NCBI GenBank assembly: GCA_903840265.1 | Contig: CAIMFH010000185.1 | Coordinates: 1-64,000 of the forward strand | Direction: 5' to 3' | DNA from: an uncultured Schlesneria sp. | Lineage (GTDB): Bacteria; Planctomycetota; Planctomycetia; Planctomycetales; Planctomycetaceae | Length of the DNA stretch: 64,000 bases | Shown here: positions 5,534-12,196 of the stretch, in pieces | Layout: each line of letters begins with the position of its first letter | How positions within the stretch are numbered: position 1 is the first letter of the stretch | Program-made: the position numbers and the translations under genes | Notes under the pieces: generated by a model | The model's input: the letters and a program-made list of their open reading frames with translations, nothing else | Database searches by the model: none | Told to the model about the DNA's origin: nothing

Positions 5534-5904
5534 ATGATTCATCAGATTCGCCGAGCGCTTAAATCGCGCGTTCACGCCACATCTGTATGCGCACAAGATT
5601 GCACAAGAAAAAGCGAGAATGCCTTTATTTCATGTGGGATTCCACTCAATTCTGAGAACTCGAGTTCATCTTACCGAAGGCTGGAATCACAATTTCGGTT
5701 ACCGCGTTCGCATTCCCGAACGCGCAACTCGCATGACGACAACTTATGCGGATTGCGCGGAGTAGTTCATTGTCACCTCCGAAACTTTGGCATCTCAGTT
5801 GCGTCACGTGTGTTATTCACATCACACGAATCAGAGGGCTTCTTTCGTCCTTTGAATTTTTGCCGAGTTCCGTTTCATTTCTTTTGTTCCAGGAAGTACG
5901 AATC
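5534..5904 (+). promoter_or_regulatory. Structured leader of pseudopilin cassette, copy A
   Basis: A non-coding stretch upstream of the first DUF1559 gene. About 270 bp of it can be aligned by eye (roughly 70 percent identity) with the leader of copy B at 7524-7891. Shared blocks include TGATTCATC at the left boundary, AGCGCTT, TGCGCGCACAAG-like sequence, CTCAATT-TGAGAA, TTACCGAAG and CTTATGCGG. Several can pair: GTTCG-CATTCC-CGAAC within 5704-5723 (extended by CGC/GCG here), ACCGAA with TTCGGT at 5673-5700, and CTCA/TGAG at 5645-5656. AGGAAG lies about ten bases before the ATG at 5905. The leader probably carries the promoter and a folded 5' UTR. Confidence 0.6.
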
Positions 5905-6852
5905 ATGCGAGTGCGTCGTCGAGGGTTTACGTTGATTGAGTTGCTGGTGGTGATTGCGATCATCGCCGTCTTGATTGCCCTGCTGTTGCCCGCCGTTCAG
6001 CAGGCACGCGAAGCCGCTCGGCGGACGCAGTGCAAGAACAACATGAAGCAGATTGGTCTGGCGCTGCATAATTACCACGACACCTACGACCAGTTCCCAT
6101 TGGGCGTTTTGAACAAGCTCAACTGGCGAGTCTCGGTCTTGCCAATGATGGATCAGGCGCCGGCCTACAATCAGCTCAACTTCACGAGTGGTGCCTTTGA
6201 CGGCAACGTGACCGATGTGAACACGCCAATACTCAAGAGCTGGAGATTGAATGCCTTTGTCTGTCCATCCAGCCCGCTGGAAACGAATCCCAACTATGGC
6301 GGCTGGAATCCGAATCGTTATCAGGGACATCACTACGCTGCCGTGGGCGGTGCGTACAATGCCGGTTATGGCAACTGCCTGAATTACTACGGAATTCTGT
6401 GCGACAACGGCCCGATGGAGATCAATCGTCGACACGGGCTGGCTGACATCACGGACGGTTCCAGCAACGTCATGCTGATCGCTGAACAGTCCAACACGGT
6501 CAAGTGGACCGGGTCCGCCAGCTGGGAATTTGCAAACGGAAAATCGCAGGGTGTTGGCGGGATGCGCGGCGGATGGGGTGGTCCGCAGAACACAGATGTC
6601 TCGACAAGTGAGTACAGCAGCACGGTGGCAGGGATGTCGGTTGTGCAATACGGGCCGAACGCCAGTTGTGGTGACTTCTTCGTCTGCGGCGTCGTGTACT
6701 GTGCCTCAAACAATCTCGCCTCGGCTCATACAGGTGGTATCCACACACTGATGGCCGACGGCTCTGTCCGCTTCGTCTCAGACAATATCGATCTGACGAC
6801 GTTCAAGCGCGCAGCAATGCGTGCTGACGGCAACCCCATCAGCCTGGACTGA
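5905..6852 (+). CDS. DUF1559 pseudopilin-like protein, cassette copy A
   Basis: 315 residues. The N-terminus [20 protein letters not shown] is a textbook type IV prepilin/pseudopilin signal: basic leader, cleavage between Gly7 and Phe8, Glu at mature position 5, and a long hydrophobic helix. The DUF1559 block follows ([27 protein letters not shown]). The C-terminus has HTGGIHTLMADGSVRF, the 'H-X9-DG' motif of this planctomycete-expanded family. It is likely processed by a prepilin peptidase and anchored or assembled at the cell surface; its real role is not established. I chose ATG 5905 because of the upstream AGGAAG and the signal sequence. It is closely similar and equal in length to the protein at 7892-8839. 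Confidence 0.93.
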   Translation: MRVRRRGFTLIELLVVIAIIAVLIALLLPAVQQAREAARRTQCKNNMKQIGLALHNYHDTYDQFPLGVLNKLNWRVSVLPMMDQAPAYNQLNFTSGAFDGNVTDVNTPILKSWRLNAFVCPSSPLETNPNYGGWNPNRYQGHHYAAVGGAYNAGYGNCLNYYGILCDNGPMEINRRHGLADITDGSSNVMLIAEQSNTVKWTGSASWEFANGKSQGVGGMRGGWGGPQNTDVSTSEYSSTVAGMSVVQYGPNASCGDFFVCGVVYCASNNLASAHTGGIHTLMADGSVRFVSDNIDLTTFKRAAMRADGNPISLD

Positions 6853-6870
6853 TTATTACAGGTGACCCCG

Positions 6871-6898
6871 AGCTCGCCTCGGTTACTCGAGGCGAGCT
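6871..6898 (+). terminator. Hairpin between pseudopilin and lipoprotein, copy A
   Basis: The 11-base arm AGCTCGCCTCG (6871-6881) pairs perfectly with CGAGGCGAGCT (6888-6898) around a six-base loop, 18 bp after the pseudopilin stop. Only a weak T-run (TGTTCTCT) follows, so it may act as a partial terminator or as an mRNA 3'-end stabiliser. That would let the pseudopilin be expressed above the lipoprotein downstream. Copy B has a matching hairpin at the same place with compensated base changes. Confidence 0.75.
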
Positions 6899-6982
6899 TG
6901 TTCTCTATCGGTTCAATTCAATCGGGCGATCCGTGCCAGTATGCACAGGATTCAACGAATTCATTCTGGGAAAATGCGGTGC

Positions 6983-7462
6983 ATGATGGTGTCGTCAGTC
7001 AGATATTCAATGGTCGTCGCCGTGAGCTGCCTGGCACTGGGATGCGGTAAATCCGATCCTCCTGCCGAAATCGTCACCGGTCGCGTGACTTACAAAGGCA
7101 AGCCAGTCGTCGGCGCGGGAATCCGCTTTTATGAGTCGCGGATCGGATTTGGTCTGGTCGCGAATCTGGATGCCGACGGACGATATGTGACACCTTCGCC
7201 GCTACCGGTCGGCGAATATCAGGTGTCGATTACAGGCGCACAGCCAGGTGGCCCCGAGATCCCGGGTGCTCCTCCTCCGTCGCCTATTCCGCCCGCCTAT
7301 GTCGATGAAGGATATCGAGACGGATCGACGAGCGGCTTAGATGCGAGGGTCTCGTCCAAATCCACGACATTCGATTATGACATTTCCGAAGGTCCTCCCA
7401 AAGAGGTCATTCCCGCTGGGCGGGTCTTGGTTCGAATGGCACCCGAAAAGCCATCAAAATAA
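6983..7462 (+). CDS. Small lipoprotein with carboxypeptidase-regulatory-like fold, copy A
   Basis: 159 residues. The start MMVSSVRYSMVVAVSCLALGC gives a lipoprotein signal with lipobox LALGC, lipidated at the Cys. A single small beta domain follows: VTGRVTYKGKPVVGAGIRFY, then DADGRYVTPSPLPVGEYQVSI. This is the carboxypeptidase regulatory-like/transthyretin-like pattern seen in many planctomycetal lipoproteins encoded next to DUF1559 genes. It probably sits in the envelope as a partner of the pseudopilin. I chose ATG 6983 because it aligns with the start of the copy B protein; the frame is open from 6941. The mid-region is rich in Pro and Gly (GAPPPSPIPP). Confidence 0.82.
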   Translation: MMVSSVRYSMVVAVSCLALGCGKSDPPAEIVTGRVTYKGKPVVGAGIRFYESRIGFGLVANLDADGRYVTPSPLPVGEYQVSITGAQPGGPEIPGAPPPSPIPPAYVDEGYRDGSTSGLDARVSSKSTTFDYDISEGPPKEVIPAGRVLVRMAPEKPSK

Positions 7463-7523: not shown

Positions 7524-7891
7524 TGATTCATCGGACCTACCAAGCGCTTTAATCGGGCGTCAACGCCGAATGTGTGCGCGCACAAGGTCGTCCAAACAGA
7601 AACGTGAACACCTTTGTGTGACGTTTGGATTCGCTCAATTTTGAGAATCCGTCTTCGTATTACCGAAGCTTCGGCTCATATCTTCGGATATCACGTTCGC
7701 ATTTCCGAACGCGAAATATGCATGCCGACCTCTTATGCGGTTTACGTTGATCAGTTCGTTACCGCTAGCCGGCACTTAGGCATATCAGTTGCTTAAGTTG
7801 AAACTCAGAGGATGCGGATCCAAGAGGTCTCTCTCTGGTGCGTTCAACCTCGATACCAGTTCATTCTTTTGTTTTGATGAAAGTGCCAATG
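7524..7891 (+). promoter_or_regulatory. Structured leader of pseudopilin cassette, copy B
   Basis: Non-coding, with alignable homology to 5534-5904. It retains the CGTTCG-CATTTC-CGAACG hairpin (7694-7711), a CCGAAGCTTCGG palindrome that can alternatively pair with the later CTTCGG, and a CTCAATTTTGAG palindrome at 7634-7645 that is perfect here but has one mismatch in copy A. Its left boundary, TGATTCATC at 7524, falls 62 bp after the copy A lipoprotein stop. The duplicated unit is therefore about 1,990 bp long. The part next to the ATG has diverged most. Confidence 0.6.
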
Positions 7892-8839
<948 letters not shown>

Positions 8840-8856
8840 TCACTATGACTGCAATG

Positions 8857-8887
8857 GGTTCGCTTCAATTGAGGCGAACCTTTTTTT
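8857..8887 (+). terminator. Rho-independent-type terminator, copy B
   Basis: GGTTCGCTTC (8857-8866) pairs with GAGGCGAACC (8871-8880) around a four-base AATT loop, with one G-T wobble, and runs straight into seven T residues (8881-8887). This is the form of a strong intrinsic terminator, 17 bp after the pseudopilin stop. It occupies the same position as the hairpin at 6871-6898. The downstream lipoprotein would then need readthrough or its own promoter. Confidence 0.85.
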
Positions 8888-8979
8888 GCGACCGGATTGT
8901 CGAGTCGCAACCGAGTATGGGCCTGGGTTTGTCAGAAGTGAACTGCAATCTATCCCGCGTGGGGAGATACGGATCTGAA

Positions 8980-9456
8980 ATGATGTTCTCAGCAAGATAT
9001 ACGATGGTACTTGGTTTGGGCTGCCTGGCTTTGGTTGGCTGTTCCAAAGGGCCCGATCCCGCCGAGATCGTGACCGGACGTGTGGTCTTTAAGGGCAAAC
9101 CGGTCGCCGGGGCTGGAATTCGGTTTTATGGACCGCACAACGGATTTGGTCTGGTTGCGAATCTGGATGCCGACGGACGGTACGTGACGCCGTCCCCCTT
9201 GCCGGTGGGTTTCTACGAAATTTCGATCACTGGCAGTCAGGGCGGCATGGCTGAGGGTCCCGGTGCACCGCTCCCTTCGCCAGTTGCACCGACTTATGTC
9301 GATGAGGCCTATCACGACGGCGCGACAAGTGGGCTGGAAGCGAGAGTCACATTCTCGCAGACGACGTTTGATTTCGACGTCTCCGAACCACCGAAAGTTC
9401 CCGAAGTTCGTCCCGGAATGCTGGTTCGGATGGCCCCGGCGAAAGGACACAAGTGA
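8980..9456 (+). CDS. Small lipoprotein with carboxypeptidase-regulatory-like fold, copy B
   Basis: 158 residues, the paralogue of the protein at 6983-7462. MMFSARYTMVLGLGCLALVGC supplies a signal peptide with lipobox ALVGC. The domain keeps EIVTGRVVFKGKPVAGAGIR and FGLVANLDADGRYVTPSPLP nearly unchanged. Differences cluster in the Pro-rich loop and the C-terminus. The frame is open from 8845, but that start would put the signal peptide 46 residues inside the protein and overlap the terminator, so ATG 8980 is chosen. It is probably an envelope lipoprotein partnered with the adjacent pseudopilin. No enzymatic residues are visible. Confidence 0.82.
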   Translation: MMFSARYTMVLGLGCLALVGCSKGPDPAEIVTGRVVFKGKPVAGAGIRFYGPHNGFGLVANLDADGRYVTPSPLPVGFYEISITGSQGGMAEGPGAPLPSPVAPTYVDEAYHDGATSGLEARVTFSQTTFDFDVSEPPKVPEVRPGMLVRMAPAKGHK

Positions 9457-9556: not shown

Positions 9557-12196
9557 TTACTTCGCTGGCTCGATCATCACCGGCGTCTGTTCGGCGTTGA
9601 CGCGTGATTGTGCTGATTCGAGCTGTGTTTTGAGATAGTCGAACAGCTCTTGGGCAGTCAGATGCAGATCGCGATTCGTATCGGCGGCACCTTGGATCGC
9701 TTCGGCCAAAGTCCAGGCAAACAAGCTGCGACCTTTTTCATCCCAAGTTCGCGATTGCTGACCCTGGTCGCACGAAATGATCACGGTGGTCGACTTCAGC
9801 GGCGTCTTGAGGCTATCGAGCAACGCCTTGCCTGCCAGTTGTCGTTTGACATCTTTACCGGTGCCGGGCGGTGTCACGTCCAGGATCAGGATTCTATCGT
9901 TTGCCGGACATTCGTTCAGCTTTTCGGCCAGCCAATCGAGTGACACGCCGGTATTGGCCATGTTGTCCAGACGGAAGTCCTTCGGGGCCAGGTAGACGGT
10001 CTTGTCATCGCCCTGATAGGCATGGCCTGAAATGGAGATCAACACCTGCATTTGCGGGCGTGCGCTACTGAGTGTTTCGGTGAGTTGTCTCTCCCAGTCC
10101 TTACGAGTCCCATCGACGATGAGCGCGCCCCGCTGATCGGAAACGGCATAGCGCGACAATAGCGCCGACTGGACGAGCCTCGCATCATTGAGAGCTGTCT
10201 TCAAAGGGGAGAGCGATGAATCGGTGTAGGATTGAGTGCCCAGCACGACGGTCCAGCGATCCGTCTGCGCGGGGCGTCGGGCGTCGATGGTGGTGGCGGT
10301 CAACGCTCCGTCAGGCATCTCAGAGTAGGCAACTCGCACGTTATCGAACTGTCGCAGATCCGCTAGCTTGACCTTGTCGAGAGCCAACGTGATTTCGGTC
10401 TTGGTGTCCGTGGTCAGCGTATGCCGCTCACCGTTGGCGAGTGAAACGGTCAGTTCATTCGTCTTGGGGTCAACGGATTGCACGGCACCATCGAACTGCT
10501 GACTGCGGGTCGCAGTGACCTCCACAATTTCGGTATCGTGCTGGATCGAGACGCGATCGCCTGGCTTCAGTGCGGCAGCGGTCAGCGGCATATTCTCAGC
10601 GGTGGTCGAACCATTGATCGAGACCTTGCACTTGGCATCGACCGGCAGCTTCAGGGAACTGGCTGCCGCACCCTGGCCAATCTGGATCGAGAGGATCGCC
10701 TGATCGGGATCGTAGCCGGCAACCGATCCGACCGTCGTGACGACGCGCCGTGCGTTCAATGAATTGAGCACACGTCCACGGGTTTGACCCGGTTCCGACA
10801 AGTGGGTGATGTCCAGTCGATCGCCGTGCTGCAGGTCGCGCAGTTCGATCGTCTGGCCATTCAATTTCATCACGGCACTCTTGGGGACTCGCACTGGCAG
10901 GTCATCGCGCGTGTTCCCTTCTTCCATCGACAGAATCAGCCGCGAATCATGCAGCAGTAGTTCTTTCAGCGTGCCATGCGTCGGGACCGGCCGGTCGACA
11001 ATCATGTTCACCACTAAATCCGACTGATTCTTGTCGACATCCATCTCGACATGATCGCCCGGCTTCAATTCGCGCAGCAGGATGTTCTTCTTGTCGTTCA
11101 GCAGGAAGATGCGTTGTTTGCGAGGCACCTTGAATGGTTCGAGTGCTCCGGTGTTCAAATCCTGCACGACGAATTCGTTTTTGTCGCCGTTCACTTCGCG
11201 AATCAGCCCATGCGCCTTTTGGCCGGGGCCTTGGTTCGCTTTGGAATCCGGCCACAGCATCAGACCGCTCATCAGGACCGAGGCTCCTAGAGCCGCGGCT
11301 GCCATGTAGGTGCGCCGATTGTTGTTCTTGCTCGGTTCGTCCAAGACCATCTCGCCGGTTTGCCCACCGACGAGTTTAAGATCGATCTGCAGATCGGACA
11401 GTGCTTCGTCTGCAGTCTTGTATCGCAGGGCCTGATCTTTTTGAGTCAGCTTTTGCACGACCTTTGCCAAGTCGGGAGGGACCCCTTCCAGAACACGACC
11501 GATTTCGGGCAGTCTTCGATCCGGGGCGGCGTGCCACATCATCCAGGCGACCTGCTGGTTGCGTCCTTTCGCATTCAGACCCGGGAACAGCTCTTCGAAG
11601 TTTCCGCCGCACATCAGGTCGTACGCTGAGAAACCGAGCGAGTACAGATCGCTGGCCGGGCCGACATCGCCGAAGTCATCGGACACCGTTTCCGGCGCCA
11701 TGTACTTGGTCGTGCCCTTCAGCAGGCTGCCATCGACGGTGGCGACACGACAGGCCAGACCAAAGTCACCCAGTTTGACGCGGCGTCGCGCATCGATCAT
11801 CAGGTTGCCCGGCTTGATGTCGCCGTGGATCACCCCTTGAGCGTGGAGGTACTTGAGAGCTCGCAAGACATGAGCCAGGGTGGCTCGCAACGCCCGCAGA
11901 TCGATCTGGCGCCCCGACAATCGCTCGGCCAGACTCGACTGCATCAGTTCCATCACCAGCCAACCTCGTTCTTTGACGATGTCGAAGATGGTGACAATGT
12001 TGGGATGCTGCAGAGACGCCAGCAACTGGGCTTCCTGCCAGAAACGCTCCAGTCGCTTGGGGTCGTCGACAAATTCCTGGTGCAGTTGCTTGATCGCGAC
12101 TTCGCGACCGAGTTCGGTATCTCGAGCTCGATAAACAGTTGCAAAGCTGCCCGAGCCGATTTTTTCGAGAATCTTATAACGCGTATCGAGCGACAC
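9557..12196 (-). CDS. Ser/Thr protein kinase with membrane anchor, beta-repeat region and caspase-like domain
   Basis: 879 residues. Residues 7-270 form a Hanks-type kinase: Gly loop GSGSFATV, Lys36 in VAIK, Glu55, catalytic HGD at 124-126 (His-Gly-Asp in place of HRD), DFG at 144-146 and APE at 167-169. A single membrane helix lies at about 296-315. Residues about 330-640 hold roughly four beta-rich repeats, each with a 'lkpGDhV' element (ELKPGDHV, DLQHGDRL, ALKPGDRV, DLRQFDNV), resembling DUF5666/OB-like modules. Residues about 645-870 look like a caspase (peptidase C14) fold: VVLGTQSY start, SISGHA with His725, and ILDVTPPG where the family has DxC. The Cys is replaced by Thr775, so proteolysis is unlikely. 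The kinase looks active; the C-terminal part would be extracytoplasmic and may be a sensor. Confidence 0.88.
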   Translation of the reverse strand: MSLDTRYKILEKIGSGSFATVYRARDTELGREVAIKQLHQEFVDDPKRLERFWQEAQLLASLQHPNIVTIFDIVKERGWLVMELMQSSLAERLSGRQIDLRALRATLAHVLRALKYLHAQGVIHGDIKPGNLMIDARRRVKLGDFGLACRVATVDGSLLKGTTKYMAPETVSDDFGDVGPASDLYSLGFSAYDLMCGGNFEELFPGLNAKGRNQQVAWMMWHAAPDRRLPEIGRVLEGVPPDLAKVVQKLTQKDQALRYKTADEALSDLQIDLKLVGGQTGEMVLDEPSKNNNRRTYMAAAALGASVLMSGLMLWPDSKANQGPGQKAHGLIREVNGDKNEFVVQDLNTGALEPFKVPRKQRIFLLNDKKNILLRELKPGDHVEMDVDKNQSDLVVNMIVDRPVPTHGTLKELLLHDSRLILSMEEGNTRDDLPVRVPKSAVMKLNGQTIELRDLQHGDRLDITHLSEPGQTRGRVLNSLNARRVVTTVGSVAGYDPDQAILSIQIGQGAAASSLKLPVDAKCKVSINGSTTAENMPLTAAALKPGDRVSIQHDTEIVEVTATRSQQFDGAVQSVDPKTNELTVSLANGERHTLTTDTKTEITLALDKVKLADLRQFDNVRVAYSEMPDGALTATTIDARRPAQTDRWTVVLGTQSYTDSSLSPLKTALNDARLVQSALLSRYAVSDQRGALIVDGTRKDWERQLTETLSSARPQMQVLISISGHAYQGDDKTVYLAPKDFRLDNMANTGVSLDWLAEKLNECPANDRILILDVTPPGTGKDVKRQLAGKALLDSLKTPLKSTTVIISCDQGQQSRTWDEKGRSLFAWTLAEAIQGAADTNRDLHLTAQELFDYLKTQLESAQSRVNAEQTPVMIEPAK

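Follow-up and report, generated by a model that had tools for sequence, protein, structure and literature searches.

The window analysed here, a stretch of 64,000 nucleotides from an uncultured Schlesneria sp. (contig CAIMFH010000185.1, assembly GCA_903840265.1), carries on its minus strand (9557–12196; GTG start, stop codon at 9557–9559) a gene for an 879-residue protein in which a Ser/Thr kinase is joined across the membrane to a caspase fold without the catalytic cysteine. As far as sequence comparison can tell, loss of this cysteine is a family trait that sets the kinase-caspase family apart from other planctomycete caspases, and the caspase domain is a maintained pseudoprotease. Receptor Ser/Thr kinases and pseudoproteases are kinds of proteins already known; what is new is that in relatives the kinase gene ends a Tad/Flp-like pilus operon, and this context is the most specific clue to the function of the family. 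No description of a kinase-caspase family was found in the literature searched (supplements and figures not covered), and the word "caspase" is absent from the main text of a survey of planctomycete kinases (PMC11032199).

A first-pass annotation of the window had proposed the order kinase, membrane helix and caspase-type domain, with about four "GD-h-V" repeats in between, and this layout is borne out by Pfam, hydropathy and AlphaFold2. The protein scores 169.5 bits against the Pfam Pkinase model (PF00069, E-value 1.2e-49; gathering cut-off 31.7), and the kinase is intact, as had been stated, with Lys36, HGDIKPGN (124–131) and DFG (144–146) all present. The most hydrophobic 19-residue stretch spans residues 296–314 (mean hydropathy 1.56); a hydrophobic helix at the same place, with no second such stretch, is found in all 85 homologues, with an excess of Lys and Arg on the kinase side in 83 of them. 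This single-helix topology agrees with the proposed location of the caspase domain outside the membrane. The repeats correspond to four barrels of approximately 80 residues each (326–642), mutually homologous in 6 of 6 hhalign pairs (E-values 2e-17 to 9e-21), the fourth of which matches DUF5666 with an E-value of 1.6e-5, under the Pfam cut-off. The ectodomain, comprising the barrels and the caspase domain, was modelled with a mean predicted local distance difference test score (pLDDT) of 93 and a predicted template modelling score (pTM) of 0.66 (AlphaFold). The window protein is 98% identical to a homologue from Schlesneria sp. RYN_441 (L061).

Modelled with 65 relatives, residues 641–879 adopt the predicted caspase-type fold (AlphaFold2; mean pLDDT 96, pTM 0.93). 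The top match in the PDB is MALT1 paracaspase (Foldseek, E-value 1.8e-12), and the top VIA-align match is Arabidopsis metacaspase-4 (Z 21.2, 207 residues, 2.9 Å). The window domain thus shares its fold with the solved structures of MALT1 and type II metacaspase, which are cysteine proteases; unlike them, it has no catalytic Cys. Profile alignment to MALT1 sets the His column of the family on "AGHGY" and the Cys column on "LLDMC", and together with the alignment of homologues confirms that His725 is retained and that Thr775 occupies the Cys position, as numbered in the annotation. The window protein therefore has a His-Thr pair where an active caspase homologue requires His-Cys. Cysteines at 763, 774 and 809 were considered as replacement nucleophiles and rejected: C763 is present in 35 and C809 in 32 of 46 other planctomycete caspase domains, nearly all of which have the catalytic Cys, so that both are ancestral rather than new nucleophiles. 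Among the 55 family rows without C775, C809 is found in only 27 and C774 in only 21.

A search for the same architecture yielded 85 non-redundant members (the window protein, 79 of the 80 search loci and 5 from further searches); a locus broken into 2 frames (L108), kinase-only matches (L018–L020) and duplicates were left out. Every member that extends over the kinase Lys, HGD and DFG has them intact (L082 and L109 are cut short), and the kinase is of the non-RD type (HGD) in every member read. A caspase domain is present in 78 of the 85 members and lacking from 7. Most caspase-bearing members have lost the Cys: only 10 of the 78 keep the His+Cys dyad, 18 have His-Ser, 14 have His-Thr, and the rest display 18 further combinations, for example Arg-Gly, Gln-Asp and His-Pro. 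The Cys is retained, for instance, in L045 (DVCHSG) and L051 (DLCHSG). By comparison, the dyad is kept in 42 of the 46 other caspase domains, drawn as controls from genomes within the same planctomycete class; the controls go back to 40 regions chosen, non-randomly, at the top of the profile list, nearest to the family profile, and 9 open reading frames (ORFs) below 80 bits were dropped before counting. The Fisher test gives p = 7e-19 for this difference, a value that ignores kinship and is descriptive only. Consistently, position 775 ranks 15th of 233 in conservation among the controls and 153rd in the family, and position 725 ranks 14th and 48th, respectively, the median column entropy being 2.27 in the family versus 2.43 in the controls. 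For prokaryotic caspase homologues at large, dyad retention has been put at 84%, and for those of Planctomycetes at 64% (PMC3501461).

On the tree, built from residues 1–640 and without L082, which starts at residue 193, plain parsimony requires no fewer than 33 changes of the residue at position 775 and no fewer than 9 in whether a Cys is present. If loss is irreversible, the count of Cys losses is 25; equal-cost parsimony reads the changes mostly as gains. We prefer loss as the direction of change because 42 of the 46 control caspases have the Cys. The 7 members without a caspase domain (L088, L090, L093, L098, L104, L105 and L107) form a single clade and end right after barrel 4, at approximately 650 residues; no caspase remnants of note were detected downstream of these genes, the only matches being two of 34 residues (E-value 0.004).

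A search of the class, covering 397 genomes, gave 54 matches scoring over 200 bits that are assigned to the family by extent and score, each in a different genome. Matches with E-values below 1e-40 were found in 9 of 294 genomes from across the phylum, two of them outside the class and covering the caspase part only, and none of 988 matching plasmid records covers 80% of the window protein. About half of the family (L060, L072, L011, L012, L015, L017 and others) carry an extra C-terminal region of approximately 240 residues beyond the caspase domain, for which no Pfam match was found in the piece tested, that of L060. A related kinase with degenerate motifs (L018, on the reverse strand of genome G040; HGK for HGD and no clean DFG) has a C-terminal part that by eye resembles FGE-sulfatase domains, and may be a pseudokinase related to the family. 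Eight of the planctomycete caspases (L174, L176, L163, L147, L169, L173, L148 and L167) have DACRN or DACRD instead of DxCHSG around the catalytic Cys, with the dyad intact.

Variable as its active site is, the caspase domain evolves under purifying selection. The ratio of nonsynonymous to synonymous substitution rates (dN/dS) of the domain, compared between the window and 4 relatives, is 0.05, 0.08, 0.10 and 0.16, rough values given that dS is saturated in 3 of the 4 pairs; in the same comparisons, the barrels range from 0.02 to 0.21 and the kinase from 0.004 to 0.04, so that the caspase domain is about equal to the barrels and above the kinase. Residues F826, G836, A838, D839, E850, L851, Q870 and P872 are conserved in both the family and the controls, and R647, R682, Y683, G750, L753 and P877 in the family but not in the controls; conservation of the fold core persists across homologues down to 26% identity. 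Because of this purifying selection, we regard the domain as a putative pseudoprotease that is maintained. The annotation had suggested that the protease fold was turned into a ligand or peptide sensor: the turn to non-catalytic use is strongly supported, on comparative grounds, by the dyad counts and by selection, and the sensing of a ligand or peptide is something that we infer.

In relatives of the window gene, the kinase gene is preceded, on the same strand, by genes for a TadE-like protein, an unassigned protein, a CpaB-like protein, a TadA/CpaF-type ATPase with an N-terminal FHA domain (hereafter FHA-ATPase), the T2SSF membrane proteins TadB and TadC, and a companion membrane protein, the kinase gene being the last. 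The operon was defined by clustering neighbouring ORFs, and gene distances were taken between open frames, from stop to stop. Upstream sequence of 6.5 kb or more is available at 47 loci; at these, the companion is found 28 times, TadC 27, TadB, the FHA-ATPase and the CpaB-like gene 25 times each, the unassigned gene 23 and the TadE-like gene 14, many flanks ending before the latter; the companion lies within 400 bp of the kinase gene at 41 of the 79 loci with flanks. The complete arrangement is seen in G015, a one-contig genome in which all 7 genes stand in order and on one strand before a kinase gene whose product is 58% identical to that of the window. The linkage occurs on both sides of the midpoint root of the tree and in the clade of the window protein itself, where, besides G015, L036 and L037 keep TadC and the companion, and L035 keeps the companion, with its TadC on the other strand. 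The link between the kinase family and the FHA-bearing Tad-like operon is widespread and probably old.

The assignments rest on Pfam matches above cut-off in L060 (T2SSE 205.5 bits, T2SSF 72 and 50.9 bits, and FHA). The NCBIfam equivalog cut-offs are not reached by TadA (TIGR03819, 333 versus 373 bits) or CpaB (TIGR03177, 36.7 versus 71 bits), hence the wording "Tad-like". The FHA residues G-R...S-[RK]-x-H, which serve phosphothreonine binding, are retained in 24 of 27 FHA-ATPases. Of the 30 companions examined (out of 44 loci, after a letter filter), 21 display a zinc-ribbon pattern, CxxC...CxxC; in L036 and L037, an FHA-like domain takes the place of the zinc ribbon. In the companion, this first part is followed by a membrane helix and a short segment outside. 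Companions also share a near-constant cytoplasmic stretch before the helix, [KR]xARFI[ST]...LGEDGxLPxLxL, in which the Ser/Thr following basic residues is a candidate phosphosite.

The reading that we favour, and consider evenly balanced between right and wrong, is that of a single-pass receptor Ser/Thr kinase whose dead-caspase ectodomain senses a cue from the envelope or the pilus and signals to FHA-containing parts of the Tad-like machine. That catalysis is lost while the fold is kept and located outside speaks for a binding function of the caspase domain, the operon in relatives for a Tad-like machine as the client, and the FHA domains for phosphothreonine signalling. For ligand binding, activation, substrates and the direction of control, we infer the following. 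The cytoplasmic kinase, judged by its residues, would be active, and the 4 barrels would form a stalk presenting the non-cutting caspase fold outside the membrane. The dead caspase fold, perhaps through its empty substrate groove, may bind an envelope peptide or protein, most likely a part of the Tad/Flp-like pilus or something that the pilus meets. Binding would alter the pairing or activity of the kinase. Threonines that the kinase then phosphorylates would be recognised by the companion membrane protein and by the FHA domain of the TadA/CpaF-type ATPase, and the pilus machine would thereby be switched on or off. In the genome of the window, the signal would go to the companion/TadC pair. 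A more specific version, in which a caspase fold that repeatedly lost its catalysis is the outside sensor and the kinase supplies the missing upstream phosphothreonine writer for the FHA domain of the Tad motor, gating the pilus, is put forward tentatively, as a possibility that we would not yet bet on.

Several observations weigh against this receptor reading. The 10 members with His+Cys could still be proteases, and the packing of the barrels against the caspase domain is uncertain in the model, given the pTM of the ectodomain. All 6 caspase-less members with an upstream flank keep the Tad-like operon (L090 has no flank), so the caspase domain is not needed for the operon link; since the clade retains both barrels and operon, some of the sensing may fall to the barrels. 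No significant association between operon linkage and Cys state was detected on the tree, on which there are 4 supported independent pairs, the dyad being kept in 2 of 41 linked versus 7 of 26 unlinked members. The FHA-like domain of the companion is weak, falling below the Pfam cut-offs in L036 and in the window genome. Finally, the flanks of the window gene contain no Tad-like operon neighbour, and a query with the FHA-ATPase of L060 did not find an FHA-ATPase in the window genome, giving ATPase-domain matches on contigs C82, C139, C156 and C81, none of which extends into the FHA part. Elsewhere in the same genome, on contig C123, a TadC gene (product 68% identical to that of L037) adjoins an FHA-like companion (48%). 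The operon has thus been broken up in the lineage of the window.

The caspase fold may instead be purely structural and, with no ligand of its own, serve for dimerisation or docking to bring two receptors together, which we deem unlikely while taking it seriously. Caspases dimerise, and the core and late-domain residues are conserved in the family and the controls while the nucleophile varies; one clade also manages without the domain. Against this stand the residues conserved in the family only, which could suit either role; the caspase-domain model itself is a monomer. If, rather, the domain were a functionless accessory on its way out, as the recurrent loss of Cys and His and the clean disappearance of the entire domain from one clade might suggest, the low dN/dS, the core conserved between distant homologues and the confident model of the window's own copy would be difficult to account for, and we regard such decay as improbable.

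It is more doubtful still that the domain remains an enzyme, with Ser or Thr775 and His725 forming a hydrolase or peptidase. Ser or Thr is found at 775 in 41 of the 77 caspase-bearing rows of the tree, and His+Ser or His+Thr pairs, including that of the window, occur in 32 of 78 members. However, Thr is a poor internal nucleophile, position 775 is G, A, V, P, N, F, D or R in 24 of 77 homologues and turns over on the tree as described above, and position 716, which is D in 42 of the 46 controls, is variable in the family (mostly T, S, D, A or G) and M in the window. The least probable explanation, to which we attach very little weight, is a conflict or defence system akin to EACC1, VMAP or MAD6-type kinases, in which the caspase would act as effector or decoy. 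The nearest and sole NCBIfam match to the caspase part is caspase_w_EACC1 (NF047832), the PADLOC kinases MAD6 and PD-T4-6 match the window protein, and approximately 70% of effector-position caspases in vWA-MoxR conflict systems are inactive (PMC7159879). Yet all NCBIfam defence scores are under cut-off (74 versus 140 bits for NF047832 and 122.5 versus 460 bits for MAD6, NF047741), and the PADLOC matches listed fall on the kinase domain (one reaching residue 376), as any Hanks kinase gives. No EACC1 partner was recognised by Pfam among the 2 window neighbours and the operon proteins scanned, and a single family match per genome, together with the Tad-like operon, points to a standing cell function.

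PASTA kinases combine a cytoplasmic Hanks kinase, one helix and repeated small ectodomains. The window protein resembles PknB and other PASTA kinases in all three respects; its ectodomain, unlike theirs, consists of DUF5666-like barrels and a caspase fold, the score against NF033483 is 204 versus 450 bits, and a Pfam scan revealed no PASTA match. Cyanobacteria and other bacteria have pseudo-orthocaspases, in which the p20 fold carries a substituted dyad and is thought to function without catalysis (PMC6426788). The family is similar in combining a caspase-homologous fold with a substituted dyad. Pseudo-orthocaspases, however, typically have Tyr/Ser and a link to photosynthesis (PMC6426788), whereas the window has His/Thr, the family has other letters and Tyr is found at position 725 in none of the 78 members; the caspase is here C-terminal to a transmembrane kinase, and in Planctomycetes, which the available text of that paper does not mention. 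Inactive effector-position caspases of vWA-MoxR systems have been suggested to be regulators or peptide binders, and EACC1 caspases are N-terminal and paired with a small membrane protein (PMC7159879), whereas the window domain is C-terminal and outside the membrane. Tad-type ATPases with an N-terminal FHA fusion are known from the Kil Tad-like apparatus of Myxococcus xanthus (PMC8460266) and as class III CpaF (PMC12019362). Further FHA proteins are encoded near Kil; a signalling cascade acting upstream of Kil is postulated by the authors, and the available text does not mention a kinase (PMC8460266). Unlike in Kil, a transmembrane kinase is the last gene of the operon in the relatives of the window gene.

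The neighbours of the window gene itself encode a TIM-barrel protein (weak match to AP_endonuc_2) and pilin-like and small proteins; the latter form a pair, the pilin-like protein first, that is present in two tandem copies at 5746–7462 and 7838–9456. The small protein has a weak carboxypeptidase-regulatory-like match, and the pilin-like proteins, which we take to be DUF1559-like, have an N-terminal methylation-type helix.

Features of the kinase-caspase gene and its product, in window coordinates
Feature	Coordinates	Strand	Basis
Whole gene	9557–12196	−	ORF; homologues aligning over full length
Ser/Thr protein kinase domain, residues 7–266	11399–12178	−	Pfam PF00069, E-value 1.2e-49; motifs
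Single membrane helix, approximately residues 296–316, Lys/Arg toward kinase	11249–11311	−	Hydropathy, 85/85 homologues
Beta-barrel repeat 1, residues 326–403	10988–11221	−	Structure model; hhalign between repeats
Beta-barrel repeat 2, residues 404–485	10742–10987	−	Structure model; hhalign between repeats
Beta-barrel repeat 3, residues 486–565	10502–10741	−	Structure model; hhalign between repeats
Beta-barrel repeat 4, residues 566–642	10271–10501	−	Structure model; hhalign; DUF5666-like, sub-threshold
Caspase-fold domain without catalytic Cys, residues 641–879	9560–10276	−	AlphaFold2, Foldseek, VIA-align
His725 (SISGHAY), catalytic His position	10022–10024	−	Homologue and MALT1 profile alignment
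Thr775 (ILDVTPPG), catalytic Cys position	9872–9874	−	Homologue and MALT1 profile alignment

A single family thus spans the history of a pseudoprotease, from an intact dyad through Ser, Thr, Gly and other substitutions to the loss of the whole domain, beside kinase motifs that do not vary, and offers a natural experiment in the conversion of a protease into a binding module. Linkage to the operon makes testable which kinase, and which outside cue, addresses the FHA domains on Tad-type motor ATPases.

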